NCBI GenBank assembly: GCA_920105625.2 | Contig: OV050032.1 | Coordinates: 130,717,810-130,781,809 of the forward strand | Reading direction: 5' to 3' | Origin: Clusia tigrina | Taxonomy: Eukaryota; Arthropoda; Insecta; Diptera; Clusiidae | Length of the DNA: 64,000 nt | Shown: positions 10,533 to 51,280 of the stretch, piece by piece | Layout: each line of letters begins with the position of its first letter | How positions within the stretch are numbered: the first letter of the stretch is position 1 | Program-made: the position numbers and the translations under genes | Notes under the pieces: generated by a model | What the model saw: the letters and a program-made list of their open reading frames with translations, nothing else | Database searches by the model: none | Told to the model about the DNA's origin: nothing

Positions 10533-10534
10533 CG

Positions 10535-11095
10535 TTAAGGCCCAATCATCGATATCGTCCGCGACGTTGAAAATAAATCCAGCTGGGTGACTTCCGTAGG
10601 ATGTTCAACTGGTGATCGGCTTAAAGCATCGACGTGAGCTAGTCGGCTACCTTGTCGATGTACAGGTTCAAAATTATACTCTAGTAGCTTCATCCACCAC
10701 CTAGCGATTCTAGCTTTCAGCTCTTTCTTTTCTCGAACTGTGGCGATAGCGGAGCAATCTGTAACGAGGCGAAAATGTTTTCCTAGTACGTAAATTTGGA
10801 ATCGTTCCAGCGATTCTACCACAGCTAGTACTTCTAACTCATAACTGTGATAGCGTTGTTCTGCATCTGTGCAGTGTCGACTGAAATAGAAAACAGGTTG
10901 ACAGTTCTTGCTATCGTGCGACTGAAGTAATATTCCAGCCAATCCAACGATACTCGCGTCCGTATGTATTTCATGTATCGCTGATGAATCGTATAAGGTT
11001 AGTACGGGAGCAATAGTTAACATTTGTTTTAACCTGCCGAATGCATGTTGTTGTTCGTCTGCCCAAATAAAATTATCTTTTTCCGATTTGTGTAA
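10535..11095 (-). pseudogene. Element A1 RNase H
   Basis: The 162-codon frame at 10535-11023 has the RNase H carboxylates (HTDASIVGLAG, SYELEVLAV, VTDCSAIA) and the terminal LAHVDALSR block typical of Ty3/gypsy. Upstream, KLLHKSEKDNFIW continues the domain to about 11095. A short deletion with frame change separates it from the RT thumb (stop near 11100), and a one-base frame change near 10560 separates it from integrase. Both breaks recur in A2. Confidence 0.75.
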
Positions 11096-11330
11096 AAGTT
11101 TAGTTTGAAATTAACGAATAATCAGGTACGAATTTTCGAAAGAACCCGGTTAATCCAAGGAATCTACGTATTTCGGTTACGTTTGTCGGCGTCTTGAAAT
11201 GTTTAATCGCGCTTATTTTATGTTCGCCCGGTTTTATTCCTTCTCCGTTTATAACATGTCCAAGATAAACAATTTCGGTTTGTAGAAAATTACATTTGTC
11301 AAGTCTTAAAGTTAAACCGAATCTTAGTAG
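11096..11330 (-). pseudogene. Element A1 RT C-terminal part, cut by element B1
   Basis: The frame encodes the RT thumb/connection (FLQTEIVYLGHVINGEGI, RRFLGLTGFFRKFVPDY). It is interrupted at 11330 by the B1 LTR and resumes at 20518. The open frame that appears to extend to 11381 picks up LTR codons and is not native beyond 11330. Confidence 0.8.
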
Positions 11331-11488
11331 TGTAACGACTCGTTTTCGCTGGGGTAAAAACTCAGCGGGTCCCAGGGTCACTTACAGAAATTTATTTCAA
11401 TAGCGTTAGTTTTTATAAGTGTTTTTATTTATTTTCAAAATTACTACTTATTTCCTATACATATATATAATTATATTTAATTACTACC

Positions 11489-11977
11489 CTATTCTGTGTG
11501 CTCGTGGTAGTGTCCGTGGTTTGTACTAGTGTCCCAGGGAGAGTCGGTCAAAACCATAAACTCCACTGGCTCTGTCTGCGTTGCGAATGTGTCCCAGGGA
11601 GAGTCGGTCAAAACCATAAACTCCACTGGCTCTGTCTGCGTTGCGTGTGTGTCCCAGGGAGAGTCGGTCAAAACCATAAACTCCACTGGCTCTGTCTGCG
11701 TTGCGTATGTGTCCCAGGGAGAGTCGGTCAAAACCATAAACTCCACTGGCTCTGTCTGCGTTGCGTGTGTGTCCCAGGGAGAGTCGGTCAAAACCATAAA
11801 CTCCACTGGCTCTGTCTGCGTTGCGTGTGTGTCCCAGGGAGAGTCGGTCAAAACCATAAACTCCACTGGCTCTGTCTGCGTTGACTTATTGTCAACAGTC
11901 AAAGTACCTAGTTTCGATGCTTGGTGCGTCTCTAGGAGCTTGGTGCGTTGTCTACTTACGGAGCGATGCTGGATCAA
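11489..11977 (-). other. Repeat-encoded open frame in the B LTR leader
   Basis: The minus-strand frame is open for 162 codons but begins with TTG, and the first in-frame ATG lies inside the first repeat. It consists of 20-residue repeats with the core TQTEPVEFMVLTDSPWD, six times. The TQT cores, including KSTQTE in the first, fit the dynein light chain LC8 binding pattern. Openness is weak evidence because the 60-bp period is divisible by three and plus-strand frames are open too. It may be only a by-product of RNA hairpin repeats. Confidence 0.25.
11531..11883 (-). repeat. Six tandem 60-bp repeats in the B LTR
   Basis: Near-perfect units, differing mainly at the gaatgtg/tgtgtg/tatgtg position. 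On the minus strand each can fold as CCAG-U-GGAG pairing with CUCC-CUGG around a 19-nt loop that contains AUGGUUUU and ACCG. The loop core resembles that of the element C hairpins. The repeats lie downstream of the TATA box and upstream of AATAAA, so they would be in the R region of the transcript. Copies are at 19029-19381, 48619-48971 and 56053-56405. Confidence 0.85.
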
Positions 11978-12004
11978 AGAGGCTTGGTGTTTGGTTCACT
12001 CCGC

Positions 12005-12011
12005 TTATATA
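12005..12011 (-). promoter_or_regulatory. TATA box of the element B LTR promoter
   Basis: The minus strand reads GCTATATAAGC. Transcription would be expected to begin near 11980, inside the motif CAAGCCTCTTTGATC (11986-11972). A consensus splice donor GTAAGT follows at 11959-11954. The other LTR has the same box at 19503-19509. The order TATA, motif, GTAAGT recurs upstream of ORF3. Confidence 0.6.
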
Positions 12012-12198
12012 GCGAAAGCTTGCCAGGGGATCAGTGCTCGTTGTTGTTGTGGCCCAGTTGTCCTTAGGCCACCTTCAACTTCCGCTGGTTGTCCACCTTG
12101 TTGTAGTTCCCCTAGTTGTCCATCGTAGTTGTTGCTTGCAGTAGTGTGGCCTGATCGCTGCTGTTAGTTGTCGCTTTGCTGTTGTTGTAGTTAATATA

Positions 12199-12630
12199 TC
12201 GTTCACACTCCGCTTGCTTACGGCTCTGTGTTTACGATCGGTGCGGTCTCGTTGTCATCCGTGCTCCGCCTTCGGTCGCTGTAGTGTTGTTGTTGTTAAT
12301 ATATTCTTTCACACTCCGCCTGCTTATGGCTCTGTGTTTACGATCGGTGCGCTCTCGTTGTCATCCGTACTCCGCCTTCGGTCGCTGTAGTGTTGTTGTT
12401 GTTAAAATACTGGTTTCTACTTCTTTGTGTTTACGATCGGCTCGCGTATGTGTGGTGCGCTCTCGTTGTCATCCGTGCTCCGCCTTCGGTCGCTGTAGTG
12501 TTGTTGTTGTTGCAGAGATTGGTTTGCACTCTGCCTGCTTACTGCTTTGTGTGTGCGATCGGTTAGCGTGTGTGTGATGCTCTTTCGGGTTTCTCTGTGT
12601 TCCGCCTTTGGTCGCTGCACTGTTGTAGAA
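12199..12630 (-). repeat. Four imperfect repeats of about 108 bp in the B LTR U3
   Basis: Each unit contains cgatcgg, ctctcgttgtcatcc, ccgcctt(c/t)ggtcgct and a CAA-rich run on the minus strand. The first two units are most alike and the last is the most diverged. Lying upstream of the TATA box, they could be enhancer repeats. The short frames across them show no family. Confidence 0.75.
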
Positions 12631-12986
12631 ATGTTTGCTTGCTGTTTCTTTTCTCCTTTATAGCCGTACTAGTCCCTCTTGATGTTTTTTGTACTATTAA
12701 GCCGTCGTCGTCATCAGTCTAACTCTTTCGGTTTCTGCGCTCCTCACCACCTGTACGTTTATTGGTCCGATCGTCTGTGCGTAAATGTTTTGTTATACTT
12801 ATCCGCTGTCTTTGTTGTTGCATTTAGCGTGGGAGGTGGTTACCTTTTTAAGCTGCATGATATCGGGGATGGTTGCATGCTTGAATATTGTTTGTGGTTA
12901 AAACAAATAAAATATGGTGGACATCGTTATTTGTTTTTGGACTTAACACGGTCTCTGGTGGTAGCATATAGTTTTTGTTGTGTATG

Positions 12987-13011
12987 CGGAAAATACTTCT
13001 GGTATTTTCCG
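12987..13011 (-). repeat. Palindrome at the LTR terminus of element B
   Basis: CGGAAAATAC and GTATTTTCCG form a perfect 10-bp inverted repeat around a 5-nt spacer, starting 9 bases from the LTR end. The element C LTR has a comparable arrangement (CCAAAAT and ATTTTGG around a cttctg-containing spacer). It could bind a dimeric protein or mark the end for integrase. Confidence 0.6.
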
Positions 13012-13019
13012 TCTTTACA

Positions 13020-13031
13020 CGTCCTCCCGAC
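13020..13031 (-). promoter_or_regulatory. Polypurine tract of element B1
   Basis: Next to the 3' LTR the minus strand reads GTCGGGAGGACG. Element C has TAGGGAGGGCG in the same place. This is the expected primer for plus-strand DNA synthesis. Confidence 0.55.
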
Positions 13032-13032
13032 T

Positions 13033-13395
13033 TTATGGACGAAGGAGGAACGTTGCTTCTCCGTGGTGCACTATGACCCGGTACGGTGGTTGTTCGAACC
13101 GTAGGCGTTTTTTTCTAGCTTGGGTTTCTTTTAGTATCTTTATCGTTTTTCTTACCAGTGCCGTGGGCAGCCCATTCGCCTTGGGTCCCTCTAGTTCCTG
13201 TACACTGTAGAAATGGACGTCTTCCTTGTGGGGTTCCTTTAATGCGGGTAGTATTCCAGGTGAATCTTTGTTGTACTTCTGTCTTTTCCAGGTGGTCTCC
13301 GTATCGCTGTCCGAGGTTTCTGATTCTTCCTGTTGGTAGTTTCGTGTCCCATGCGGGTCCAGTGGAGGTGATTCCTTCGCTTGTTTTGAGAGCAT
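13033..13395 (-). pseudogene. Element B1 ORF3, C-terminal domain (out of frame with the Ulp1 part)
   Basis: The minus-strand frame ends 13 bases before the 3' LTR. An acidic stretch (EESETSDSDTETTW) is followed by a conserved block (VHFYSVQELEGPKANGLP through RKKRLRFEQPPYRVIV). A clear homologue of this block exists in element C at about 27380-27575, so the protein sequence is conserved between the families. It overlaps the end of the Ulp1 frame in another register; the frame changes near the T-run at about 13405. That could be one indel or a recoding site. The element C homologue shows that the frame itself is real. Role unknown. Confidence 0.65.
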
Positions 13396-14192
13396 TTCCG
13401 CAGTTTTTTTCGTTTTTCGGCCCCAACTAATTGTTTAAGTAGGTGATATATTTCTGCTCGTTTGTGGGTGGCGTCCTCAGGGCTGAACCAGGTAGACAAG
13501 TCAGCCGTGTCCCATGTGTTTCCTGGTATGGATTGTGTTAGGAACTTCTCTGCGTTTTGGAGTAGATAAATGCCACAGTCGGTATTGTTTATCTGTTGCG
13601 GCGTTTTAAGTCGATGGGAGGGTACCCTGGTGGCATTTATGGGTATTGGTGGGTCTTCCATAAATTTACTGCGGTATTCCTCGTTCAGGTATCTTCTCAG
13701 TATTTCGGCCTCCTCTTCGTGTGAACCTCGGTCCAGGGAGTCGAATATTAATATTGTGGCACCTTTTGTCCCTGTCACCAGAGTTCCGGGGAAACAGACA
13801 ACGGCCAAATACCAATGATTTGCCTTTTTTATGGGCACCATTATTAAATCGGTGTCGAAAAGGTTCTTCCCCTTTGTCCATCGTTTTACGCCCATGTGCA
13901 TGTCGGTTGCAGTTCCCCGTTGTCTGGTGAGTCGGGTGAAAAAATTAGTACTACAAATGTGCACTCTACCCCGCTTTCTGCTGGGTACCAGGTTCTCTCG
14001 GAGCCATCTCAAATAGAAATCGATTAGCACATCGTTAAGTAGGCAGTTCGGCCGTAGGCGAGCGATATCCGAACTCCTGATAGCGATGCCTCCGGTGGTT
14101 GTCGGGTAAATCGTGATGACTTCGTCGCCGGACGGGGTGTTGTCTTCTTCTACTTGGACGCGTGCGGCCTGGATTATCGTTATTTGAGCCAT
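13239..14192 (-). CDS. Element B1 ORF3: Ulp1/SENP-type (C48) cysteine protease
   Basis: A 317-codon frame with an ATG in good context. Residues about 40-250 form a C48 protease domain: LLNDVLIDFYLRWL, ICSTNFFTRL, LIMVPIKKANHWYLAV, ILIFDSL and PQQINNTDCGIYLLQ. The predicted catalytic set is complete: His126, Asp151, Gln200 and Cys206. The blocks most resemble the SENP6/7 (Ulp2-like) branch, from memory of those families. Known members cleave SUMO or other ubiquitin-like proteins. It sits where errantiviruses carry env, after integrase and before the PPT. It has its own TATA box about 110 bases upstream. After residue about 255 the frame departs from the conserved C-terminal domain. No signal peptide or membrane segment is seen, so it is not an envelope protein. 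Confidence 0.85.
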   Translation of the reverse strand: MAQITIIQAARVQVEEDNTPSGDEVITIYPTTTGGIAIRSSDIARLRPNCLLNDVLIDFYLRWLRENLVPSRKRGRVHICSTNFFTRLTRQRGTATDMHMGVKRWTKGKNLFDTDLIMVPIKKANHWYLAVVCFPGTLVTGTKGATILIFDSLDRGSHEEEAEILRRYLNEEYRSKFMEDPPIPINATRVPSHRLKTPQQINNTDCGIYLLQNAEKFLTQSIPGNTWDTADLSTWFSPEDATHKRAEIYHLLKQLVGAEKRKKLRKCSQNKRRNHLHWTRMGHETTNRKNQKPRTAIRRPPGKDRSTTKIHLEYYPH

Positions 14193-14244
14193 CGTGGGTT
14201 TTTTTTGGTTTTTTTTTCTTTGGTTTGTTAGTTTCGAGAACGTT

Positions 14245-14306
14245 GTTTTACTTACGTGCGCTGAAGATCAAAGAGGCTTGTATGGTGGCGTGGAGGCCCT
14301 TTTATA
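14245..14306 (-). promoter_or_regulatory. Internal promoter and leader of ORF3
   Basis: On the minus strand, GGGTATAAAAGG (TATA at 14306-14300) is followed 19 bases later by CAAGCCTCTTTGATC (14280-14266) and then by a GTAAGT donor-like site (14255-14250). The same 15-base motif lies 18 bases after the LTR TATA box and 12 bases before a GTAAGT there. The ORF3 ATG is about 75 bases below the motif. This suggests a subgenomic transcript made from a copy of the LTR core promoter. Confidence 0.6.
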
Positions 14307-14407
14307 CCCGTTTTGGTGAGGTAACGGTATTCCACGAGAGCGGCAATCTGGTTCTCTCAGCTCTTAGTTTTCCGCTCTCCTGGTCCTCTCACCGTTTCTC
14401 CTTTGTA

Positions 14408-15832
14408 TTAGTGTGGGTCATTGTTGTCTTCCTCGTGGTTACCAGGCGCACAGTATGTTTTAATTTCGCTGAGATGAGCGGTCTTCCTGCGTTTGTCTCC
14501 CTTTCGCTGCAGCTCCATGATTACCGGTGAAATGAAGTTTACTATCTGGTAGGGTCCCTCATATCGCGGTGCTAGCTTGGCGGCGAAGTGCTCTGTTGCT
14601 TTGGACAAGTGGTGTTGCTTGACTAACACCCATTGTCCAACATCCGGTTTCCACTCTCGGCGTCGCAGATTATAATGTCTTCTTTGATCCTGTGTTGCTC
14701 GTTCCAAGTTTTGCCTCACTATGCGATAAGCTTCTTGTAGTTGATCTACCCGTTCGTTAGCAGTCTGTGGGGTTAGCCCTGTACCCAACGTTGTCTCATC
14801 GTACAGCGCCTTTGGTAGTCGCGGTTCACGCCCTTGTATCAGATAAGCCGGACTGTATCCCGTTGTCTCCGATACACTAGTATTAATGGCAAGAGTCAAT
14901 TCGGGAAGCAAGTCGTCCCACTTCTGCTGCCGTTGACTCGCAAATTGGGCCACCATAGTCTTGATGGTGCGATTGGTGCGTTCCACCGCATTTTCCTGCG
15001 GAGTGTAGGGCGCCGTGAACTGATGTTTGATGCCATACCCTTCGGTGAACCGGCGGAACGCTCGACTACTAAATTGAGACCCATTGTCCGTCACTAGGAT
15101 TTTAGGTACTCCAAAGCGAGACAGGATGTGTTCCCGAAAAGCCCGTTGCAATGTCTCGGTGGTGGCTTTTCGGAGGGGGGCCATCTCGGTCCATTTGGAG
15201 AATTTATCGAAGAACACGACTAGCATGGTGTTGCCATGTGTGGACCGGGGTAAGGGCCCGACAAAGTCGGCGCACAAGATAGACCAAGGTTCAGTGGGGA
15301 TGTGGCTCAACATTTTCCCAGCTGGTTGTTGGTGGCTGCTTTTAAATCGTTGGCAGGAGGAGCATTGACGCACGTATCGACTTGTATCGCGGAATAGCCT
15401 CGGCCAGTAATATCGGTTGGCTATCCGTGCTATTGTTTTCCTGATACCTAAGTGTCCTGCCGTGAGTGCATCGTGATTTTCCTGTAGGACCCGGTTCCTG
15501 AGCGCTCTTGGCACACACAGTTTCCACGGGACGCAATCTTCGTCGCCGCGATAACTCGAGATGTGCCTGAATAACTGTCCACCTTCCAATTGGTAATCAG
15601 CATATTTCTCCGGCCTAGCGATGACCTCTGCTTTTCGTTTCTGCCACCAGGGGCAGTCTGGTTCTGTTCGGTCCTCAATGGTAATGGTGCAGGCGGCTTC
15701 TGTTGGCTGTCTAGACAAGGCGTCGGCTAACACGTTCAATTTTCCCTTCCGGTATTGCACGTCGAATGTGTACTGTTGCAGTTCAAGGGCCCATCTTGCG
15801 ATACGACCTGCAGGGCTTTCGATGGAGTTTAA
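14408..15832 (-). CDS. Element B1 integrase
   Basis: The frame is open from the TAG at about 15835 to 14408. From the methionine at 15760 there are 450 codons: the end of RNase H (LADALSRQ), an HHCC domain (H96, H103, C133, C136) and the catalytic D165 (CADFVGP), D225 (VTDNGSQF) and E260 (ENAVERTN). A GPY/F-type module follows (YEGPYQIVNFI). No chromodomain is seen. In an intact element this is the C-terminal part of Pol. ORF3's promoter begins about 100 bases downstream. Confidence 0.85.
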   Translation of the reverse strand, partial: LNSIESPAGRIARWALELQQYTFDVQYRKGKLNVLADALSRQPTEAACTITIEDRTEPDCPWWQKRKAEVIARPEKYADYQLEGGQLFRHISSYRGDEDCVPWKLCVPRALRNRVLQENHDALTAGHLGIRKTIARIANRYYWPRLFRDTSRYVRQCSSCQRFKSSHQQPAGKMLSHIPTEPWSILCADFVGPLPRSTHGNTMLVVFFDKFSKWTEMAPLRKATTETLQRAFREHILSRFGVPKILVTDNGSQFSSRAFRRFTEGYGIKHQFTAPYTPQENAVERTNRTIKTMVAQFASQRQQKWDDLLPELTLAINTSVSETTGYSPAYLIQGREPRLPKALYDETTLGTGLTPQTANERVDQLQEAYRIVRQNLERATQDQRRHYNLRRREWKPDVGQWVLVKQHHLSKATEHFAAKLAPRYEGPYQIVNFISPVIMELQRKGDKRRKTAHLSEIKTYCAPGNHEEDNNDPH

Positions 15833-17683
15833 CTATTTTAATGATAGGTGATCCGTGATGACCGTAAATTGGTATCCCTCGAGGTAGGGTCGCATCTTTC
15901 TAATACCCCACACGATCGCTAAGCACTCCTTTTCTGTGGGTGAATAGTTCCGCTCTGCGTTATTTAAGTGGCGGCTGGCGTAGGCTATCACGCGTTCCAT
16001 CCCGTCGACATCTTGAGTGAGTACCGCGCCTAGTCCGTAGTCGCTTGCGTCGGTTTGGAGCACAAACTTCTTAGTAAAATCCGGGCACGCCAGGACTGGT
16101 GCCTCTGTCAATTTCTGCTTCAACTGTTCGAACGCGTGCTGTTGCTCTCCAGCCCACTTGAAGTGTTTGCCCTTTTTTAGCAATAGTGTTAACGGGTGTA
16201 CTGTCTTGGCGAAGTCTGGAACAAAACGACGGTACCATGACGCAACACCCAGGCAGCGTCGCACCTCTCGTATGTTTTGGGGTGGTTCGAGTTCTCTGAT
16301 GGCCGCGATTTTATCTGGATCAGTGTGGATTCCTTGGTCACTGACCACGTGACCCAAATACTTTAATTTCCTCTGGAAGAACGCGCATTTGTCTTTATTC
16401 AATTTAAGGTTGGCCTTTCGCAGGCGTCGGAATACTTCGGTTATGTTCTGTTGGTGTTCCTCTAGTGTTCGCCCTGTGACGATGATATCATCCAGGTATG
16501 CGAACGCGTGCGGCTCCATCTCAGGACCTATTACCTGGTCTAAAGCTTGTTGAAAGGTCGCAGGTGCTGAATGTAGCCCGAATGGCATTACTTTCCACTG
16601 GAAGAGTCCACGGCCTGGCACCGTGAATGCGGTGTACTCTTTGCTGTGGGCATCCATGGGAATTTGCCAGTACCCGTTCTTTAAGTCTAGGGTGCTAATG
16701 TATTTCGCCTCCCGTAAGCGGTCCAATATATGCTGTATCCTGGGCAACGGGTATGCATCCGGTATGGATCTGGCATTCAGTTGCCTGTAGTCTATGCACA
16801 GTCTCCACCTCCCGTCTTTTTTTCGCACGAGGACGATTGGGGCGCTATGTGGGCTATGTGAAGGCTCTATACATCCCTTTTTCAGCAATTCTTCCACTTC
16901 GGCGTTGATTACTTCCTGCTGTGCGGGATTCCTGGGGTAATATCGTTGCTTTATTGGCCTGTCGTCACGCATCACAATTTTGTGACTCGTGATGTTGGCT
17001 ACTCCAGGCTTGTCCTCAAACTTAGCCAGCTCGGTCTTCAGAAATCCTTCGATAGTCTCCTTTTCCGTAATGGTCTCTTCTTGAATGGACGTGCACCGTG
17101 TAATGTCGCTGTTTTGCACGCCCCCAATCTGAGGTCCTAGTACGATTTCTTGGTCCCCGCATTCGATTTTTGTTCCCATCGTCGACATGAAATCGAGTCC
17201 CAGAAGGAGGTCGTCTGTTGAGTCGGGCATGGTGAGTAGCTCTAGTTCGCAGCTTCGGCCCCCTAATTTTATGTTCACTCGCAGTACCTCCGTGATCTCT
17301 CGTGTGCGTCCGTCAGCCATACGTGCACGTATGTGTGTAGGAATTACCCTACCGGTGGTTGCACGTAACTGACGGCTAAGGTTTTCGCTGATGAAACTCC
17401 GAGTGGCTCCGGTATCGACAGTGGCCGTCACTTCGTTGGTGTCGATGGTGACTGCAGCACAGATACGCTGCCCATCGCAACGTAAAGCGTTTAGTGTTGT
17501 TGAGGGCTGTTGCTGATGGGCTGCGCCCCGCCTCGCTCTTGACGGCAGCCCCGCTCGTTTCCCCCTTGCGCTCTGCAGCACTCCACTGTTCTTATGTTCC
17601 TCTGGCCGCACTCCCAACAGAATAGAACCTGAGCATTTCGGCAGTGTCGCGCCAAATGCCCCGTCTGTCCGCAGCGTCTGCAA
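15833..17683 (-). pseudogene. Element B1 protease-RT-RNase H, ended by a nonsense codon
   Basis: The 616-codon frame holds the aspartic protease (TVDTGATRSF, LLLGLDFM), RT (LCIDYRQLNA, LKNGYWQIPM, MPFGLHSAPA, YLDDIIV) and most of RNase H ([33 protein letters not shown]). It stops at a TAG where related elements have Trp in the LKWL motif, and the same frame continues into integrase, so the lesion is a single nonsense change. It is shared by B2. The frame is -1 relative to Gag and overlaps it by about 190 bases, so expression would need -1 frameshifting; the methionine at 17683 is not a likely start. Confidence 0.85.
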
Positions 17684-18657
17684 GCTGTGCGCACATCGAT
17701 GCGTGCCTCTGCTCCAGTGTGACTAATCGGCGCTACCTGTCGATTGCGGGCCTCACGTGGTGGTGTACGCTCGACTCGTGATTGTACAGAGGGTATTCGG
17801 TGTGGGTCCCGGTCGCCACGGAAGCCTTCCAAGTCTTCGGCCATCTCCACTAGTTCTTCCAGCGTTCCAAAATCCACGTACCATTGGTACTCTTCCAAGC
17901 TATTCCGGAAAATGCGCTCTAGCTTCTGTGATTCTGTGTACCCTGCTTGCCGCATCAGATTTTGCATCTCCAACACATACTCTTTGAATTTCTCACGTGG
18001 TTTTTGCCGCCTCTGTCGGATCTCATCCTCCAACTTCTCCAGGTATCTGGCAGGCAAGAAGAATTTAAGAAAATCCTTCCGGAATAAATTCCATGCTGTC
18101 CAGGAACGATTGTTATTGCGATACCATAGAAGCGCACGATCTTTTAACAGTTCCGGCATGGTACGTGGGAGCATATCCTTGTTGAGCCCATATACTTCCG
18201 AGAGCTCCTCCACTCGTTCAAGGAATGCCAGCGGGTCACGGCCACCGTCGTATTTAATAGACCATTTCCTCACATGATCGATGACTCCGGCGTACTGTGC
18301 CTGGTGTGGCTGGTCAATGGCCGTTGGTGACACAGCGCGATGCAGTGATGTCCTCCGAAACTCTGCCTCCCATGCCGCTGGTATTTCACCTGTGAATATA
18401 TGGCCTGGTCTGTCCACGCTCAGCGTATTGCGGGTACCTATGGGCGTAGCCAGCTTGGGTGACGTACTCCTGACGTACCTGGATTTTAGTTTTTCAAAGC
18501 GGTTTCGTTGTTCTTCAGTCAATTCAGTCTCCGTGAAGAACTCAGATAGTTGCTTGCGGAGATCTTCCACGGTTCCTGCAGCTTCTATGCCGAATTCCAC
18601 AGCGAAAATCACCAGCTCCTCTTTGCGCAGCGTGTACAACCAACTTGTTTTCACCAT
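17491..18657 (-). CDS. Element B1 Gag
   Basis: 388 codons from an ATG at 18657. Residues about 8-42 resemble a SAP motif (LRKEELVIFAVEFGIEA, then GTVEDLRKQL). The central part is a Ty3-type capsid (DPLAFLERVEELSEVYGL, RALLWYRNNN, FFLPARYLEKLEDEI). Near the C-terminus are one CCHC knuckle (CRRCGQTGHLARHC) and a second Cys-rich motif without His (CWECGQRNIRTVECC). The protein would assemble the particle and package RNA. The untranslated leader from the primer site is about 150 bases. It is closely related to the element C Gag. Confidence 0.88.
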   Translation of the reverse strand: MVKTSWLYTLRKEELVIFAVEFGIEAAGTVEDLRKQLSEFFTETELTEEQRNRFEKLKSRYVRSTSPKLATPIGTRNTLSVDRPGHIFTGEIPAAWEAEFRRTSLHRAVSPTAIDQPHQAQYAGVIDHVRKWSIKYDGGRDPLAFLERVEELSEVYGLNKDMLPRTMPELLKDRALLWYRNNNRSWTAWNLFRKDFLKFFLPARYLEKLEDEIRQRRQKPREKFKEYVLEMQNLMRQAGYTESQKLERIFRNSLEEYQWYVDFGTLEELVEMAEDLEGFRGDRDPHRIPSVQSRVERTPPREARNRQVAPISHTGAEARIDVRTACRRCGQTGHLARHCRNAQVLFCWECGQRNIRTVECCRAQGGNERGCRQERGGAQPISNSPQQH

Positions 18658-18810
18658 CCTGTGTTCGTCTTAGATGATGATGAAAACAATGGGTGTTTAT
18701 GTGTATAACCTGGTGCTGATTCGGCACTCCTCTGAGTGACTGCGTAGATCGACGTAGTTGTTTATCACTATGTTTTTTTAAAATCCGATGCGTTGAATTT
18801 CTTTTGAAAG

Positions 18811-18827
18811 TCCCTGCTCGGGCGCCA
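18811..18827 (-). promoter_or_regulatory. Primer-binding site of element B1, tRNA-Lys type
   Basis: The minus strand reads TGGCGCCCGAGCAGGGA, one base inside the 5' LTR. It differs by one base from the tRNA-Lys3 primer site of lentiviruses as I recall it. Element C carries the identical sequence. A lysine primer site is reported for Osvaldo. Confidence 0.75.
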
Positions 18828-18828
18828 C

Positions 18829-20517
18829 TGTAACGACTCGTTTTCGCTGGGGTAAAAACTCAGCGGGTCCCAGGGTTACTTACAGAAATTTATTTCAATA
18901 GCGTTAGTTTTTATAAGTGTTTTTATTTATTTTCAAAATTACTACTTATTTCCTATACATATATATAATTATATTTAATTACTACCCTACTCTGTGTGCT
19001 CGTGGTAGTGTCCGTGGTTTGTACTAGTGTCCCAGGGAGAGTCGGTCAAAACCATAAACTCCACTGGCTCTGTCTGCGTTGCGAATGTGTCCCAGGGAGA
19101 GTCGGTCAAAACCATAAACTCCACTGGCTCTGTCTGCGTTGCGTGTGTGTCCCAGGGAGAGTCGGTCAAAACCATAAACTCCACTGGCTCTGTCTGCGTT
19201 GCGTGTGTGTCCCAGGGAGAGTCGGTCAAAACCATAAACTCCACTGGCTCTGTCTGCGTTGCGTGTGTGTCCCAGGGAGAGTCGGTCAAAACCATAAACT
19301 CCACTGGCTCTGTCTGCGTTGCGTGTGTGTCCCAGGGAGAGTCGGTCAAAACCATAAACTCCACTGGCTCTGTCTGCGTTGACTTATTGTCAACAGTCAA
19401 AGTACCTAGTTTCGATGCTTGGTGCGTCTCTAGGAGCTTGGTGCGTTGTCTACTTACGGAGCGATGCTGGATCAAAGAGGCTTGGTGTTTGGTTCACTGC
19501 GCTTATATAGCGAAAGCTTGCCAGGGGATCAGTGCTCGTTGTTGTTGTGGCCCAGTTGTCCTTAGGCCACCTTCAACTTCCGCTGGTTGTCCACCTTGTT
19601 GTAGTTCCCCTAGTTGTCCATCGTAGTTGTTGCTTGCAGTAGTTGGGCCTGATCGCTGCTGTTAGTTGTCGCTTTGCTGTTGTTGTAGTTAATATATCGT
19701 TCACACTCCGCTTGCTTACGGCTCTGTGTTTACGATCGGTGCGGTCTCGTTGTCATCCGTGCTCCGCCTTCGGTCGCTGTAGTGTTGTTGTTGTTAATAT
19801 ATTCTTTCACACTCCGCCTGCTTACGGCTCTGTGTTTACGATCGGTGCGCTCTCGTTGTCATCCGTGCTCCGCCTTCGGTCGCTGTAGTGTTGTTGTTGT
19901 TAAAATACTGGTTTCTACTTCTTTGTGTTTACGATCGGCTCGCGTATATGTGGTGCGCTCTCGTTGTCATCCGTGCTCCGCCTTCGGTCGCTGTAGTGTT
20001 GTTGTTGTTGCAGAGATTGGTTTGCACTCTGCCTGCTTACTGCTTTGTGTGTGCGATCGGTTAGCGTGTGTGTGATGCTCTTTCGGGTTTCTCTGTGTTC
20101 CGCCTTTGGTCGCTGCACTGTTGTAGAAATGTTTGCTTGCTGTTTCTTTTCTCCTTTATAGCCGTACTAGTCCCTCTTGATGTTCTTTGTACTATTAAGC
20201 CGTCGTCGTCATCAGTCTAACTCTTTCGGTTTCTGCGCTCCTCACCACCTGTACGTTTATTGGTCCGATCGTCTGTGCGTAAATGTTTTGTTATACTTAT
20301 CCGCTGTCTTTGTTGTTGCATTTAGCGTGGGAGGTGGTTACCTTTTTAAGCTGCATGATATCGGGGATGGTTGCATGCTTGAATATTGTTTGTGGTTAAA
20401 ACAAATAAAATATGGTGGACATCGTTATTTGTTTTTGGACTTAATACGGTCTCTGGTGGTAGTATATAGTTTTTGTTGTGTATGCGGAAAATACTTCTGG
20501 TATTTTCCGTCTTTACA
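18829..20517 (-). repeat. Element B1 5' LTR
   Basis: Same length and layout as the 3' LTR: 60-bp repeats at 19029-19381, TATA at 19503-19509, U3 repeats at about 19697-20130 and palindrome at 20485-20509. About a dozen substitutions distinguish it from the 3' LTR. The same distinguishing bases recur in the two LTRs of B2, so the B2 copy arose by duplication of B1 or its ancestor, not by a new insertion. Confidence 0.9.
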
Positions 20518-21240
20518 GTAGCAGCTGCAGAAATTTATCGAGGCGATACAGTCCTTCACTTACAGTTTTGCTCAGAATAATAACGTCGTCTAGGTATACT
20601 AGAATATCACCACGATTCATCTCATCAGCAATTTGATTCATTACCCTTTGAAAACAGGCGGGTGCGTTAACTAATCCGAATGGCATGCGATTATATTCGT
20701 AGTGACCGCTAGTAGTTACAAACGCAGTATATTGTTTTGAAAATTCGTCAATTTCGATTTGGTGATAACCCATTCGTAGATCAAGAGTAGTAAATATTTT
20801 ACTTCCGGCCAATTGTGCGAATTGTTCCTCTATAACTGGCATAGGATATGGCGTCTTTACGGTTATGCTGTTAAGAAGTCGATAGTCGACGCAAAGTCGC
20901 TTTTCAACATTTTTCTTTTCGACTAGGACAATTGGCGAAGCATATGGCGAATTCGATGTTCGTATTATTTTGTATTCCAGTAATTCACGTACGATGTTGG
21001 TAACGGCTTCACGTTGTGCGAATGGTATTCGGTATGCTCTCAGATTTATTGGCCCGTCCTTCGTTAGCTTTATTTCCATTTTCGATACCGTGCACTTGCC
21101 CAGTTCAGAAATGTTTTTGGCGAAACATTTTCGATTAACTGAAAGAATTTGTTTTAGCTCCGAGCGTTGTTTTTCATCGACTGCTTTGTCCACCTTGATT
21201 TTGTCATCGGTTTCTATCCAGCTTCATCTCCTTTGATTAC
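20518..21240 (-). pseudogene. Element A1 reverse transcriptase, N-terminal part
   Basis: An open frame of 226 codons from 21193, with FTTLDLRMGYHQI, MPFGLVNAPA and YLDDV. It is cut on its C-terminal side by B1 at the GTAG duplication and continues at 11330. Upstream, the frame is separated from protease by a small deletion near 21235 (TAG after GDEAG). The native protein began further upstream as part of Pol. Confidence 0.8.
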
Positions 21241-23358: not shown

Positions 23359-24460
23359 TTTCTCTTTCTTTTTTTTTCGAGTCAAAATTTTATTTTTAAC
23401 AATTTTTGTAATTGTTGTGAATTCGTTTTCTTTTCTCTTAACGTTTTCGTTTCTTTTCTTTCACTCCCTCAATTTAACGTTGCGACAACTCAGACAAAAC
23501 GTATGACTGGGCATGCTCGAACAACCGACAACAACAACAAAAACGTATTGCTGCTGAGTCAACGCGTACGTACACACCAACAAACTAACAACAACAAAAG
23601 CGCATTGTTGCTGCAGCTAACGCAGTTGGTTCGATTTCAAATTTCAATGATCGGTTTGACGAAACACAAGCACTGTAAGAACCAAAATCTTCTGTGGGAA
23701 ATTTTGGCCCACACTACAAATGACAGAGTCGCTACGAAACTATATACACACACACATCACGATAAAATACCCGAACCGAAGCAACTGCATTAGAAATTTA
23801 ACGAAAAAACTACATACGTTGTAACCGATTAGCGCGGCCGTGGTAGGAGCGCAGATCAGCAGCAGCATATTATACCAGTTGGAATAATAACTAGGATTAC
23901 AACAAAAGCAACCTCACGCACAGCCAACGATCTTGCCAATCAGCGCTATGCTTGCAAAGAGCGAGGAAAAACACAGCGACGAGGAATACAACAAATACAT
24001 GCCGGACAAGAGAAGGTGAGTGCACGAACTCAGCGGTGGAATTTGCCGAGTGCGTTCGCTCGGAAATTTTACACCAACAACACGAAGAAACGAGAGCGAC
24101 GCACAAGAGGGACAACGACAGAACCACCACCACGCCAACGGCCGGCAAGTACAAAGCACAAGAGGGAAATGCTGGTTGTCAGTTAAATTAAATATTTAAC
24201 AACAACAACACTATTGGATTCCGGACAGCGCTGCTGGCAGGCAACAATACTGCAGGCTAACCAGGGACCGTTGGAGTGAGGTGGCTGACCGCCAGAAGTT
24301 GAAGGTGGCCCAAGTGCAAAAGACGGCAACACCAACAAGCCTGACTGCAACAACAACAAGCCGGCCACAACAACAACAATCGACTACTGGCCAACGGAAG
24401 TAAAAACACACAACGGTGGCCTGCGAACAACAACATGTGTCAGCCGCTGCGTTCTGGGAC

Positions 24461-24467
24461 TATATAA
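24461..24467 (+). promoter_or_regulatory. TATA box of the element C LTR promoter
   Basis: Context ggactatataaacc. A start site is expected near 24490 (cttcttcgg), placing the hairpin array and the AATAAA at 25084-25089 inside the R region. The 3' LTR has the same box at about 28359. Confidence 0.6.
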
Positions 24468-24556
24468 ACCACGTAGCCCAGGCAGTAGGTCTCTTCTTCG
24501 GACACCAGCATCCTGACTAGCAACAGCTCTACAAAGTACCATACGAACATAAAAAG

Positions 24557-24985
24557 CTTAGCAAGAACCTCTGGTTTTTAACCGTTTTCTTGCTAAGTCA
24601 TACACAGACAGAGACTACAGGGATTCAGTGAGAGCCTCTGGTTTTTAATCGTTCTCCCACTGAATCACTGAGACACATACGCAACCGAGACTTAGGAAGC
24701 TTAGCAAGAACCTCTGGTTTTTAATCGTTTTCTTGCTAAGCCATACACAGGCAGAGACTACAGGGATTCAGTGAGAGCCTCTGGTTTTTAATTGTTCTCC
24801 CACTGAATCACTGAGACACATACGCAACCGAGACTTAGAAAGCTTAGCAAGAACCTCTGGTTTTTAATCGTTTTCTTGCTAAGCTATACACAGGCAGAGA
24901 CTACAGGGATTCAGTGAGAGCCTCTGGTTTTTAATCGTTCTCCCACTGAATCACAGAGACACATACTTACCGGGACGTAGAGACA
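24557..24985 (+). repeat. Array of alternating constant-loop hairpins (three 143-bp units)
   Basis: Six hairpins lie at 24557-24597, 24622-24666, 24700-24740, 24765-24809, 24843-24883 and 24908-24952. Odd ones have the stem CTTAGCAAGAA/TTCTTGCTAAG; even ones have GATTCAGTGAGAG/CTCCCACTGAATC. Both stems close the same 19-nt loop CCTCTGGTTTTTAATCGTT (single-base variants in two). Two unrelated paired stems around one loop strongly suggest a folded RNA or cruciform element. The 143-bp unit is not a multiple of three, so the array is not a coding repeat. The 3' LTR has a single pair. Confidence 0.9.
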
Positions 24986-25189
24986 GGCAAACAAGTATAC
25001 ACTAAGCAAGTTGATTTGTATAGAGTTAAGGAAGTAGTATTGTTTTGAGCAAGGACTAACAAGAGTCCATAATCAATACACTAAATAAATACGTTGAAAT
25101 TAATTTAACACACAGGATTTTATATTTTTCTGTATACGACCCCTGGAGCCGCTGAGTTTTACCCCAGCTATAGAAAAGAGTCGTTACAG

Positions 25190-25206
25190 TGGCGCCCGAG
25201 CAGGGA
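25190..25206 (+). promoter_or_regulatory. Primer-binding site of element C1, tRNA-Lys type
   Basis: TGGCGCCCGAGCAGGGA follows the 5' LTR after one spacer base. It is identical to the site in element B. Confidence 0.75.
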
Positions 25207-25279
25207 CTATAAAGACAAGGAAATTCACCGCATCCGACGCTCACCCATAGTCTTCGCCATTAACCAGGAAAGTCACAGG

Positions 25280-26866
25280 ATGGGGAAAACAAGCTGGGTG
25301 TACGTGCTACGGAAAGATGAGTTGGTGATTTTTGCAGAGGAATTCGGTTTGGAAACTACAGGCACAGTAGATGACCTCCGAAAGCGGCTTTCTGAATTTT
25401 TCACAGAAACGGTACTGACTCAGGAGCAACAATACCGGTTGATGAATCTACAACGCAGGCATGTTAAAAACACATCACCAAAGCCGGCTGCATCCATAGT
25501 TCCCAGCGAAACGCTGGAAGTGGACAGGCCAAGCACATACGCAGGTGCAACTCTACCCGCGTGGAATCCAGAGGTACGGGGAATACCACAGCATCCTTAC
25601 GTTTCACCTGCACCAATGGATCAACAATACAACGGGTCTACACAGTACGCCGCTGTTATTGATCAAGTACGGAAGTGGTCTCTTAACTTTGACGGTGGGC
25701 GTGATCCACTGGCGTTTATTGAGCGAGTGGAAAAACTTGCAGATGTGTACGGAATAAACAAAGATTTCCTTCCGCGTACTATGCCTGAACTCTTGAGAGA
25801 ACGAGCACTCATGTGGTTCAGAAACAACAATCGAGCGTGGCGGGAATGGAGCACATATAGGAAGGACTTCCTGAAATTCTTTTTACCGGCCCGTTTCATG
25901 GAGAAACTCGACGACCAGATCCGACAGCGTCACCAGAGGCATCGAGAGTCATTCAAGCAGTATGTACTCGAACTGCAAAATCTTATGCGACACGTGGATT
26001 ATTCGGAGGAGCAGAAACTGGAAAGAATCTTCCAGAACAGTCTGCCACAATATCAGCTATACGTGCGCCGTAGAGATTTCGTATCGCTACAGGAGCTGAT
26101 AGAGATGGCCGAGGATTTGGAGAGCATACGGGGAGAAGGCGAACAGCTAGCAGCGCCACCCACACAAAGGCGAACAGAGCAAGGTCCACCTCGAGAGGTA
26201 AGGAACCGACAGGTGACGGTAGAGAGCAAAGTAGTACCCATAGATCCTAGAACAGCCTGCCGGCGTTGTGGCCAAAATGGTCACATAGCACGACTATGTC
26301 GCAACGTGCAAATACTGTTTTGTTGGGAGTGTGGCCGTAGGGGAGTTAGGACGATCGAGTGCTGCAACCAGAGAGCACCACCCAACAGAAGACTACCGTC
26401 AGACACGCAGCATGGAACAGAGCAGCGACACCAGACTTTACCATGGAAAAACGCATTGCACTGTGTCGGGCGACGAATCTGCGCTAACGTTTCTATTGGC
26501 ACAGAAACTGTCACCGCGACGCTGGACACAGGTGCAACGCACAGTTTTATGAGCAGACGCCTAGCACACAAGTTACGAGCTTCTACCGGCAAATTGGAAA
26601 AATCCAATACCAGAGCGCTTATGGCAGACGGAAGTGCTAGGAGGGTCAAAGAGACATTTGTGACGAAGGTAAGGTTTGGAGGGCAGGCATGCCAGATAGA
26701 ACTACTTATCATGCCTGACTCCAGTGATGATCTACTCCTAGGAGTGGATTTCATGACAAGCCTGGGAACGACATTGAAGTGCGGCGATCAGGAGATCACG
26801 CTGGGACCTCATAACGGATGTGTGCAACCACGAGACTTTGCAACGTGCACGACAAATCCGCGTTGA
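25280..26866 (+). CDS. Element C1 Gag-protease
   Basis: 528 codons from an ATG 73 bases below the primer site. Residues about 9-42 are SAP-like (LRKDELVIFAEEFGLETTG). The capsid region contains DPLAFIERVEKLADVYGI and FFLPARFMEKLDDQI. CCHC is at 327-340 (CRRCGQNGHIARLC), with a second Cys motif at 348-362 (CWECGRRGVRTIECC). The aspartic protease follows in the same frame with Asp416 (LDTGATHSF) and LLLGVDFM. In element B the protease is in the -1 frame relative to Gag, so here Gag and PR are fused. The frame ends soon after the protease, where sequence corresponding to RT is missing. It would make particles able to mature but not reverse-transcribe. Confidence 0.88.
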   Translation: MGKTSWVYVLRKDELVIFAEEFGLETTGTVDDLRKRLSEFFTETVLTQEQQYRLMNLQRRHVKNTSPKPAASIVPSETLEVDRPSTYAGATLPAWNPEVRGIPQHPYVSPAPMDQQYNGSTQYAAVIDQVRKWSLNFDGGRDPLAFIERVEKLADVYGINKDFLPRTMPELLRERALMWFRNNNRAWREWSTYRKDFLKFFLPARFMEKLDDQIRQRHQRHRESFKQYVLELQNLMRHVDYSEEQKLERIFQNSLPQYQLYVRRRDFVSLQELIEMAEDLESIRGEGEQLAAPPTQRRTEQGPPREVRNRQVTVESKVVPIDPRTACRRCGQNGHIARLCRNVQILFCWECGRRGVRTIECCNQRAPPNRRLPSDTQHGTEQRHQTLPWKNALHCVGRRICANVSIGTETVTATLDTGATHSFMSRRLAHKLRASTGKLEKSNTRALMADGSARRVKETFVTKVRFGGQACQIELLIMPDSSDDLLLGVDFMTSLGTTLKCGDQEITLGPHNGCVQPRDFATCTTNPR

Positions 26867-26891
26867 GAACTTCCCACAAGTAAATGCATCA

Positions 26892-27596
26892 ATGCCTTCC
26901 AAGAGGCCAACTAACGTCAGAAAATCTAAAGAACAGAGACACAACAGAGAATACAGCGGAAGCCAACGCAGTAGCAAATATACATCACCAGGAACAAGTA
27001 TTACACACACGAACGCGTTCACTTGCCACGGATTCTGCCGAGGGAAAACCAAAAACGAATTACCACAAGGGCCTCAGGAGAAGGACACGGGCGCACCAAG
27101 TGGTAGTGAGATCACGACATTAAGGCGTCAAACGACCATGACAAGCAGCGCATCTTCCAGTTATTCCGCAAGGTGTTCGCCAGCGCGGGAAACCCGAGAA
27201 ATGCCACGTAGACAAACCGACAGATCAAGGGACAACCACCGTGCAATCAAGTGCACCAAACACAACAGAAGCGACGCCCATAGCCACCGCAGCAACAGTA
27301 GTAGACAACGGAACGGTGCTACAGGGAGCCCGTCAACAGAGAAACGGATGCCAAATACAGACGACTCAGCCACACAATGGAACCATGTCACATTCCAGAG
27401 TTTAGAAGAGCTACAGGAATCGAAAGGAGCTGGTCTACCACAGGGCTTAGTAACAGAAATTTTGCGTAAAGCCAAAGGGGCTCAGCAAAAACGAACACGA
27501 GGGCGAATACGATTTAGGCGAGACGCATACAGAGTGACCCTCAAACGTGACGCTGTCATCATTTTTCATCGTCGGCAAAGTAGGGAGGGCGTGTAA
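26892..27596 (+). CDS. Element C1 second ORF: basic protein with the ORF3 C-terminal domain
   Basis: The first in-frame ATG lies 25 bases after the Gag-PR stop, giving 235 codons. The N-terminal two thirds is basic and Ser/Arg-rich (RQTDRSRDNHRAIK, SHRSNSSRQRNG) with no recognised family. The last 65 residues (HVTFQSLEELQESKGAGLP through GRIRFRRDAYRVTL) are homologous to the end of element B ORF3. The stop codon is supplied by the first bases of the 3' LTR (TGTAA), so the frame spans the polypurine tract. No Ulp1 catalytic blocks are present. Expression would need reinitiation, splicing or another promoter. Confidence 0.6.
   Translation: MPSKRPTNVRKSKEQRHNREYSGSQRSSKYTSPGTSITHTNAFTCHGFCRGKTKNELPQGPQEKDTGAPSGSEITTLRRQTTMTSSASSSYSARCSPARETREMPRRQTDRSRDNHRAIKCTKHNRSDAHSHRSNSSRQRNGATGSPSTEKRMPNTDDSATQWNHVTFQSLEELQESKGAGLPQGLVTEILRKAKGAQQKRTRGRIRFRRDAYRVTLKRDAVIIFHRRQSREGV
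27577..27591 (+). promoter_or_regulatory. Polypurine tract of element C1
   Basis: AAAGTAGGGAGGGCG directly precedes the 3' LTR and matches the GGGAGG core of the element B tract. It is also translated as the last codons of the second ORF. Confidence 0.6.
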
Positions 27597-28799
27597 GAAC
27601 CAAAATCTTCTGTGGGAAATTTTGGCCCACACTACAAATGACAGAGTCGCTACGAAACTATATACACACACACATCACGATAAAATACCCGAACCGAAGC
27701 AACTGCATTAGAAATTTAACGAAAAAACTACATACGTTGTAACCAATTAGCGCGGCCGTGGTAGGAGCGCAGATCAGCAGCAGCATATTATACCAGTTGG
27801 AATAATAACTAGGATTACAACAAAAGCAACCTCACGCACAGCCAACGATCTTGCCAATCAGCGCTATGCTTGCAAAGAGCGAGGAAAAACACAGCGACGA
27901 GGAATACAACAAATACATGCCGGACAAGAGAAGGTGAGTGCACGAACTCAGCGGTGGAATTTGCCGAGTGCGTTCGCTCGGAAATTTTACACCAACAACA
28001 CGAAGAAACGAGAGCGAAGCACAAGAGGGACAACGACAGAACCACCACCACGCCAACGGCCGGCAAGTACAAAGCACAAGAGGGAAATGCTGGTTGTCAG
28101 TTAAATTAAATATTTAACAACAACAACACTATTGGATTCCGGACAGCGCTGCTGGCAGGCAACAATACTGCAGGCTAACCAGGGACCGTTGGAGTGAGGT
28201 GGCTGACCGCCAGAAGTTGAAGGTGGCCCAAGTGCAAAAGACGGCAACAACAACAAGCCGGCCACAACAACAACAATCGACTACTGGCCAACGGAAGTAA
28301 AAACACACAACGGTGGCCTGCGAACAACAACATGTGTCAGCCGCTGCGACCTGGGACTATATAAACCACGTAGCCCAGGCAGTAGGTCTCTTCTTCGGAC
28401 ACCAGCATCCTGACTAGCAACAGCTCTACAAAGTACCATACGAACATAAAAAGCTTAGCAAGAACCTCTGGTTTTTAATCGTTTTCTTGCTAAGTCATAC
28501 ACAGACAGAGACTACAGGGATTCAGTGAGAGCCTCTGGTTTTTAATCGTTCTCCCACTGAATCACAGAGACACATACTTACCGGGACGTAGAGACAGGCA
28601 AACAAGTATACACTAAGCAAGTTGATTTGTATAGAGTTAAGGAAGTAGTATTGTTTTGAGCAAGGACTAACAAGAGTCCATAATCAATACACTAAATAAA
28701 TACGTTGAAATTAATTTAACACACAGGATTTTATATTTTTCTGTATACGACCCCTGGAGCCGCTGAGTTTTACCCCAGCTATAGAAAAGAGTCGTTACA
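27592..28799 (+). repeat. Element C1 3' LTR (1208 bp)
   Basis: Matches the 5' LTR apart from the two missing 143-bp hairpin units, a 21-bp deletion near 28248 and scattered substitutions. One hairpin pair remains at 28454-28494 and 28519-28563. TATA box at about 28359. Confidence 0.9.
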
Positions 28800-28803
28800 G
28801 CAC

Positions 28804-50120: not shown

Positions 50121-50483
50121 TTATGGACGAAGGAGGAACGTTGCTTCTCCGTGGTGCACTATGACCCGGTACGGTGGTTGTTCGAACCGTAGGCGTTTTT
50201 TTCTAGCTTGGGTTTCTTTTAGTATCTTTATCGTTTTTCTTACCAGTGCCGTGGGCAGCCCATTCGCCTTGGGTCCCTCTAGTTCCTGTACACTGTAGAA
50301 ATGGACGTCTTCCTTGTGGGGTTCCTTTAATGCGGGTAGTATTCCAGGTGAATCTTTGTTGTACTTCTGTCTTTTCCAGGTGGTCTCCGTATCGCTGTCC
50401 GAGGTTTCTGATTCTTCCTGTTGGTAGTTTCGTGTCCCATGCGGGTCCAGTGGAGGTGATTCCTTCGCTTGTTTTGAGAGCAT
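50121..50483 (-). pseudogene. Element B2 ORF3, C-terminal domain
   Basis: Same frame and sequence as 13033-13395, including the frame change relative to the Ulp1 part. Confidence 0.65.
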
Positions 50484-51280
50484 TTCCGCAGTTTTTTTCG
50501 TTTTTCGGCCCCAACTAATTGTTTAAGTAGGTGATATATTTCTGCTCGTTTGTGGGTGGCGTCCTCAGGGCTGAACCAGGTAGACAAGTCAGCCGTGTCC
50601 CATGTGTTTCCTGGTATGGATTGTGTTAGGAACTTCTCTGCGTTTTGGAGTAGATAAATGCCACAGTCGGTATTGTTTATCTGTTGCGGCGTTTTAAGTC
50701 GATGGGAGGGTACCCTGGTGGCATTTATGGGTATTGGTGGGTCTTCCATAAATTTACTGCGGTATTCCTCGTTCAGGTATCTTCTCAGTATTTCGGCCTC
50801 CTCTTCGTGTGAACCTCGGTCCAGGGAGTCGAATATTAATATTGTGGCACCTTTTGTCCCTGTCACCAGAGTTCCGGGGAAACAGACAACGGCCAAATAC
50901 CAATGATTTGCCTTTTTTATGGGCACCATTATTAAATCGGTGTCGAAAAGGTTCTTCCCCTTTGTCCATCGTTTTACGCCCATGTGCATGTCGGTTGCAG
51001 TTCCCCGTTGTCTGGTGAGTCGGGTGAAAAAATTAGTACTACAAATGTGCACTCTACCCCGCTTTCTGCTGGGTACCAGGTTCTCTCGGAGCCATCTCAA
51101 ATAGAAATCGATTAGCACATCGTTAAGTAGGCAGTTCGGCCGTAGGCGAGCGATATCCGAACTCCTGATAGCGATGCCTCCGGTGGTTGTCGGGTAAATC
51201 GTGATGACTTCGTCGCCGGACGGGGTGTTGTCTTCTTCTACTTGGACGCGTGCGGCCTGGATTATCGTTATTTGAGCCAT
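50327..51280 (-). CDS. Element B2 ORF3: Ulp1/SENP-type cysteine protease
   Basis: 317 codons with no visible amino-acid difference from the B1 copy; His126, Asp151, Gln200 and Cys206 are retained. The internal TATA box is at 51388-51394, with the CAAGCCTCTTTGATC motif and GTAAGT downstream as in B1. Confidence 0.85.
   Translation of the reverse strand: MAQITIIQAARVQVEEDNTPSGDEVITIYPTTTGGIAIRSSDIARLRPNCLLNDVLIDFYLRWLRENLVPSRKRGRVHICSTNFFTRLTRQRGTATDMHMGVKRWTKGKNLFDTDLIMVPIKKANHWYLAVVCFPGTLVTGTKGATILIFDSLDRGSHEEEAEILRRYLNEEYRSKFMEDPPIPINATRVPSHRLKTPQQINNTDCGIYLLQNAEKFLTQSIPGNTWDTADLSTWFSPEDATHKRAEIYHLLKQLVGAEKRKKLRKCSQNKRRNHLHWTRMGHETTNRKNQKPRTAIRRPPGKDRSTTKIHLEYYPH

Follow-up and report, generated by a model that had tools for sequence, protein, structure and literature searches.

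Peptidases of the C48 (Ulp1-like) family have been reported in mobile elements of the Ginger1, Mutator, Crypton and Polinton types (PMC2836005, PMC3212892, PMC10175614), and the authors of the Ginger study propose that the Ulp1 and OTU domains have a role in transposition, for example via DNA repair (PMC2836005). C48 domains in DNA transposons are already known, as are enzymatic third open reading frames (ORFs) in long terminal repeat (LTR) elements. In one study of Metaviridae, 17 of its 17 lineages with a predicted env third ORF fall in the gypsy/gypsy clade (PMC12992720). Here we describe a Ty3/gypsy retrotransposon of the clusiid fly Clusia tigrina whose third gene, ORF3, encodes a C48 protease of SENP6/7-like character. 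The window analysed comprises 64,000 nt (contig OV050032.1, positions 130,717,810 to 130,781,809), and all coordinates below are window positions, on the + or - strand as stated. What appears to be new is a stand-alone, SENP6/7-like predicted deSUMOylase in an LTR retrotransposon, with a putative core promoter resembling that of its own LTR, together with a coding-looking ORF4 that has a counterpart in a sister element. In the literature searched, mostly at title and abstract level and with Repbase outside its scope, no report of C48, Ulp1 or SENP in an LTR retrotransposon was found, nor do the available portions of PMC2836005, PMC5408684, PMC6338049, PMC7264820, PMC12992720, PMC3212892 and PMC10175614 contain a C48 domain in such an element.

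The C48 protease gene and its host element

13239..14192, - strand: ORF3, 317 amino acids (aa) from ATG to stop, C48 (Ulp/SENP) protease, SENP6/7-like

The first-pass annotation had read this frame as a C48 protease with SENP6/7-like character and had named a profile search against the family as the check. In the Pfam scan, the 317-residue frame gives a clear match to PF02902 (Peptidase_C48), scoring 99.7 bits against a cut-off of 20.7 bits (E 2.8e-28, residues 52-222; the only Pfam match), and human SENP7 is its nearest solved relative by sequence (106 bits, as compared with 70 bits for SENP2). The active site is complete at the positions claimed, with the catalytic His126, Asp151 and Cys206 and the oxyanion residue Gln200 all in place. 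Across seven aligned relatives, His126 is conserved in all, Gln200 and Cys206 in six each and Asp151 in five; the 169-aa protein P0127 deviates at all of the latter three positions, and the other deviation at Asp151 is that of P0124 (Callorhinchus). The longest ATG-initiated ORF in 500 dinucleotide shuffles of the interval between pol and the LTR reached 215 codons, as against 317 in ORF3, which is a real feature well beyond chance. SUMO-protease activity is likely, and the sequence favours a SUMO isopeptidase that is produced separately from Gag-Pol. Between the matched halves of the C48 domain, ORF3 has 7 residues where SENP7 has about 60, and P0001 and the wasp protein P0125 are likewise short at this point. 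The conserved catalytic-domain insertions that mark the Ulp2/SENP6-7 branch (PMC4281951) are not found in ORF3. Because 7 residues replace the ~60-residue insertion, we file ORF3 as C48, SENP6/7-like, and not as SENP6/7.

Few relatives of ORF3 were retrieved. The protein search was restricted to candidates whose length lay between about 0.55 and 1.75 times that of the query and which had five-residue words in common with it, and full-length host SENP6/7 proteins were therefore unable to appear in it. At a threshold of E 0.001, ORF3 alone yielded only two proteins among 611 candidates, one from Peniophora and the other a C48 protein of stickleback, and a three-sequence profile yielded seven among 6024, including these two; no close relative was found in either set of this length-limited search. 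The piece spanning the protease (PR) and reverse transcriptase (RT) of the element, searched in the same database, had 6333 significant relatives among 7965 scored candidates, and the protein search would probably have picked up any close ORF3 present in other sequenced elements. Of the 120 pol matches listed, 18 carried the name Drosophila, with identities that reached 76% across half of the query; ants, frogs, a beetle, a fruit fly and an alga were among the other sources named. Taken by itself, the share of Drosophila names would make a drosophilid setting likely. Within the domain, the identity of ORF3 is 38% to P0001 (stickleback), 39% to P0123, 37% to P0124 and 39% to the SENP6-like wasp protein P0125, while P0123 and P0124 are 77% identical to each other and P0125 is 41-44% identical to P0001, P0123 and P0124. 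These identities fit an enzyme under constraint, and this constraint may have acted prior to capture, in the host, or thereafter, in the element. The viral and genome contig collections scanned for further relatives consist of viral and prokaryotic DNA, and their silence therefore says little about insects: ORF3 had no pattern match in the viral contigs, where integrase matched 4 stretches, profile A1 32 and gag 3, and it matched six stretches in the genome contigs, none of all these being confirmed as relatives.

The element that carries ORF3 has the following parts:

11331-20517, - strand: C48-carrying Ty3/gypsy element with LTRs, target-site duplication (TSD), gag, pol and ORF3
18829..20517, - strand: 5' LTR, 1689 bp, differing from the 3' LTR at 12 of 1689 sites
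18810..18827, - strand: primer-binding site adjoining the 5' LTR
17491..18657, - strand: gag, 388 aa, with a Retrotrans_gag match
17557..17563, - strand: G_GGA_AAC heptamer, -1 frameshift site of the passage from gag to pol
14408..17556, - strand: pol with PR, RT, RNase H and integrase and an in-frame stop at 15833-15835
11331..13019, - strand: 3' LTR, 1689 bp
20518..20521 (5' side) and 11327-11330 (3' side), - strand: TSD CTAC, 4 bp, at both outer junctions

The assignment of ORF3 as the third gene of a Ty3/gypsy element, made from the letters alone, is well supported by the Retrotrans_gag match, the pol domains in the order PR-RT-RNase H-integrase, the H2C2 and rve integrase matches in Pfam, the 1689-bp LTRs with TG..CA ends (TGTAAAG...TTACA) and the 4-bp TSD; a GPY motif near the integrase C-terminus was recognized by eye. 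The zinc knuckle of gag lies just below its Pfam cut-off, a SAP-like N-terminus is below its own, and no clear RNA structure was seen at the gag-pol heptamer relative to shuffles (z -0.70). We take the primer-binding site to be of the Lys-tRNA type. ORF3 begins 215 bp past the pol stop and ends 219 bp ahead of the 3' LTR. The claim that it occupies the position of env thus stands for the geometry, between integrase and 3' LTR, but nothing suggests a remnant of env itself: apart from C48 in ORF3 there is no Pfam match in ORF3 or in ORF4 (see below), and neither has a strongly hydrophobic stretch that could serve as a transmembrane segment (maximum 19-residue hydropathy 1.41 and 0.16, respectively). 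The third gene is not the env-like ORF of an Errantivirus, and the element does not carry a Ulp1 transposase of the Ginger1/Mutator kind, the C48 domain lying in a separate ORF and the element being bounded by direct LTRs. The C48 element is inserted in the pol of an outer Ty3-type element (9189-11381 and 20513-23385, - strand), for which Pfam confirms the integrase and the RNase H and whose RT-like pieces at 20513-21193 and 11100-11381 were identified by eye; the integrases of the outer and the C48 element are ~27% identical.

The window also contains a second copy:

48419-57541: second copy of the C48 element, a segmental duplicate
50327..51280, - strand: ORF3 of the segmental duplicate, identical to the first ORF3

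It belongs to a large segmental duplication that pairs 4805-15964 with 41871-53052 (99.3%) and 16031-26976 with 53055-64000 (99.8%). Because junctions and TSD are identical, the two copies represent one insertion that was duplicated with its flanks. In the second copy, a 64-bp deletion shifts the pol frame into stops; besides this, the internal regions show seven aligned differences, two of them at the deletion edges and none in ORF3 or ORF4. A ratio of nonsynonymous to synonymous substitution (dN/dS) from the two window copies was rejected, since they are one duplicated insertion and identical across the 1421 bp compared around ORF3. An ankyrin-repeat gene (7001-8935, - strand), presumably BCOR-like, has copies near 33064-34994, 39065-40994 and 44069-45998 that are 87-100% identical by piece; the first copy is open over 644 codons and the other three are split between frames.

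The putative ORF3 promoter and the overlapping ORF4

14266..14306, - strand: putative ORF3 core promoter, with the TATA-box stretch TATAAAAG from 14306 and the LTR-type block CAAGCCTCTTTGATC at 14280-14266
14193..14281, - strand: putative ORF3 leader, 89 nt, ATG-free and 48% A, reaching from the putative start up to the ATG of ORF3

In the interval between pol and ORF3, TATAAAAG is followed after 18 nt by the block CAAGCCTCTTTGATC and then by CGTAAGTA; the LTR counterpart consists of TATATAAG, the same block one base closer, and again CGTAAGTA. The 15-nt block has six exact occurrences in the 64 kb, namely the four LTRs and the two ORF3 leaders, and the number stays at six when up to two mismatches are allowed, as compared with at most one in shuffles. 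Local alignment of the LTR with the ORF3 leader scores 38, against a maximum of 35 in 1000 dinucleotide shuffles and 29 for other internal stretches that were sampled; upstream of the TATA box and past about +60, no convincing alignment of the two regions was seen by eye. The LTR of the sister element (see below) combines a TATA box with a block that has diverged further, and in the block, though only there, ORF3 is therefore nearer to the LTR of its own element. The unspliced gag leader contains seven ATGs, in contrast to none in the ORF3 leader. The simplest reading would be that a copied LTR core promoter drives a separate ORF3 mRNA. In the LTR and the ORF3 leader alike, the block is followed by GTAAGT, which may be a splice donor; splicing of ORF3 in the manner of gypsy env is neither supported nor excluded.

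A fourth frame overlaps the end of ORF3 and has a counterpart in the sister element E2:

13033..13395, - strand: ORF4, 120 aa from ATG, in the -1 frame relative to ORF3
13404..13410, - strand: A_AAA_AAA heptamer in the ORF3 frame, a weak candidate for a -1 slip into ORF4
23674..28800, + strand: sister element E2, with LTRs, gag 62% identical and PR 48% identical
26820..27596, + strand: E2 3' ORF, 258 aa, carrying an ORF4-like module

ORF4 looks coding. Its alignment with the end of the E2 3' ORF scores 86, whereas 2000 shuffles reached at most 60 and the other five frames gave 25-35; tblastn gives the ORF4-like similarity only E 0.026. Over 82 codons, ORF4 and E2 differ at 41 first, 37 second and 53 third codon positions, an excess at the third position that is modest; the figures for gag are 104, 78 and 219 over 379 codons. 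Residues 61-120 are predicted with a local distance difference test score (pLDDT) of 80-89 at an overall predicted template modelling score of 0.45, and the model has no significant match to a known fold. The third-gene region is thus probably a protease plus a small domain of no recognised kind. ORF4, which is independently supported, overlaps ORF3 from about residue 266 of the latter. It is therefore uncertain where the protease really ends, and the ORF3 frame past this point may be unused. A programmed -1 frameshift from ORF3 into ORF4 at A_AAA_AAA is possible but weak: the ORF3 frame contains five such slippery heptamers, and the RNA downstream of this one folds no better than shuffles (z 0.34). 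A start at the ATG of ORF4, or a homopolymer indel common to both copies, is no less likely. For RT, integrase and C48, E2 gave no match with an E value better than 0.7. It is itself duplicated from about 60698 to the window end.

Possible roles of the protease

Flies silence retrotransposons through SUMO-dependent steps, and ORF3 may therefore be a counter-silencing tool. To our knowledge, suppressors aimed at transcriptional silencing guided by PIWI-interacting RNAs (piRNAs) are little known; an element-borne deSUMOylase would open the question of silencing suppression to a direct test that needs one small enzyme and reporters that already exist. The explanation that we prefer, tentatively and as something short of probable, is that the SENP6/7-like deSUMOylase under its LTR-like promoter counters SUMO-dependent silencing by the host. 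It starts from what is seen in the sequence, namely the C48 domain, the active site, the position in the element, the LTR-like promoter block and the ATG-free leader. From a host SUMO isopeptidase of Ulp2/SENP6-7 type, the Ty3/gypsy element would have gained the catalytic domain, which it would carry as a separate gene under a copied LTR core promoter. The protein would most likely remove SUMO, chiefly chains or multi-SUMO groups, from nuclear silencing proteins, with Panoramix and its partners in piRNA-guided silencing as the best candidate targets, and with the silencing machinery deSUMOylated the element would stay transcribed. In Panoramix, changing four SUMO-acceptor lysines abolishes repression of a tethered reporter; a non-cleavable SUMO fusion restores repression, whereas endogenous enzymes strip off most of the SUMO when it is cleavable (PMC13195609). 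Because Panoramix repression needs SUMO, it is plausible that an additional, strong deSUMOylase could relieve silencing, and among possible ORF3 targets the silencing machinery is the best motivated.

Several points weigh against this explanation. SENP6/7 are inefficient on single SUMO (PMC4281951), and a mono-SUMO substrate is therefore less suited to this type of enzyme. The structural model of ORF3 is of intermediate confidence, having a mean pLDDT of 66.7, with three of five models below 50 and a value of 52 for the block 191-200, which includes Gln200; because SENP-like rows were used in building it, the model is not independent of the sequence match. The 42-bp shared block and the TATA box form a modest basis for a promoter, and across 150 nt the LTR aligns with the ORF3 leader at a score of 16.5 and with the sister LTR at 18.0. 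Moreover, pol is intact in neither window copy, a single insertion was observed (in two segmental copies), and E2 lacks a C48 match, though it is a deletion derivative and its deletion would have removed any C48 formerly present. ORF3 could also be a passenger.

According to the main rival, which we regard as rather unlikely, the deSUMOylase serves the Gag or integrase of the element itself: stripped of SUMO chains, these would be spared from SUMO-targeted ubiquitin ligases or freed for nuclear entry and integration. Such a role would agree with the chain editing by SENP6 that shields substrates from RNF4-type degradation (PMC4281951), with the part in transposition proposed for the Ulp1 domains of Ginger1 and Mutator (PMC2836005), and with the position of ORF3 after integrase, which resembles the C-terminal placement in Ginger1. 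However, ORF3 is not fused to integrase and apparently has its own promoter. We regard it as about equally unlikely that ORF3 is a passenger, host SENP6/7 sequence caught by chance in a single copy of the element and without a selected role. It would account for the single insertion, the broken pol, the missing match in E2 and the lack of a close ORF3 relative among 611 and 6024 candidates, whereas pol has many; yet ORF3 and its active site are complete, the promoter block is LTR-like and the leader clean, and the identity of ORF3 to SENP6/7-like proteins is only slightly below that of the wasp host protein. A very recent capture is not supported, since nothing closer than ~40% was found, a weak argument as the SENP6/7 protein of the fly host falls outside the length-limited search.

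A further proposal concerns a frame in the LTRs:

18987..19355 (5' LTR) and 11489-11857 (3' LTR), - strand: 122-aa frame over 60-bp tandem repeats, with five ATQTEP (TQT) motifs

These motifs resemble LC8/Cut-up ligands, and we know of no retroelement that attacks piRNA-guided co-transcriptional silencing by an enzyme together with a decoy. The dynein light chain LC8/Cut-up dimerises Panoramix (PMC7861614), and ORF3 might de-SUMOylate Panoramix while the repeat peptide acts as a multivalent LC8/Cut-up decoy, two tools against one silencing complex; we consider this very unlikely. The related TQT-coding DNA of E2 is not open, and two opposite-strand frames over the 60-bp repeats are open likewise. 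The E2 LTR contains alternating hairpin units with different stems and the nearly constant loop CCTCTGGTTTTTAATCGTT (folding z -4.6 and -1.7 for the two units and -1.9 for both together). Because these hairpins form, the E2 repeats point to a function as DNA or RNA, and the units are perhaps an RNA or DNA structural element; the repeats in the LTRs of the C48 element do not exceed shuffles in folding (z -0.06 and -0.58). It is similarly improbable that ORF3, like the CE-clan proteases of adenovirus, poxvirus (I7L) and African swine fever virus (pS273R), is a protein-cutting maturation or host-shut-off protease and not a deSUMOylase, and least probable that it dampens insect immune signalling by mimicking the host protein Verloren (Velo), listed as Drosophila Ulp2 (PMC4281951). 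For the preferred role in countering SUMO-dependent silencing, we infer expression, SUMO cleavage, nuclear action, target and benefit to the element.

Comparison with known systems

A Lys-type primer-binding site is, we assume, common to the C48 element and the Osvaldo/Ulysses/Isis group of Ty3/gypsy elements. Members of this group have Drosophila hosts (PMC5408442, PMC3098803, PMC3136932); the LTRs of Ulysses are long (2 kb), and a pol-env probe has been named for Isis (PMC3098803). Ulysses is described with two ORFs (PMC3136932), in contrast to the third gene of the C48 element, a comparison by description only. The LTR retrotransposons of bdelloids carry a captured enzyme as third gene in place of env (PMC5408684), as does the C48 element; their ORF3s are a GDSL esterase and a DEDDy exonuclease, and Ulp1, C48, SUMO and peptidase are unmentioned in the text of PMC5408684.

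Cryptons with C48 (PMC3212892) and Polintons with a Ulp1-like protease (PMC10175614) resemble the C48 element in having a mobile-element peptidase, and in some CryptonS elements the C48 domain lies on an additional protein (PMC3212892). However, these are tyrosine-recombinase or self-synthesising DNA transposons and not LTR retrotransposons. Ginger1 and Mutator-like transposons (PMC2836005) are likewise mobile and C48-bearing, and the Ginger1 integrase is Gypsy-like, but in these cut-and-paste elements C48 is part of the transposase, whereas ORF3 forms a gene of its own within an LTR retrotransposon, under a putative LTR-like promoter. In fold, active site and closest sequence match among solved structures, ORF3 is like the Ulp2/SENP6-SENP7 branch; in contrast to these enzymes it is shorter, lacks the long N-terminal region and is carried by a retroelement.
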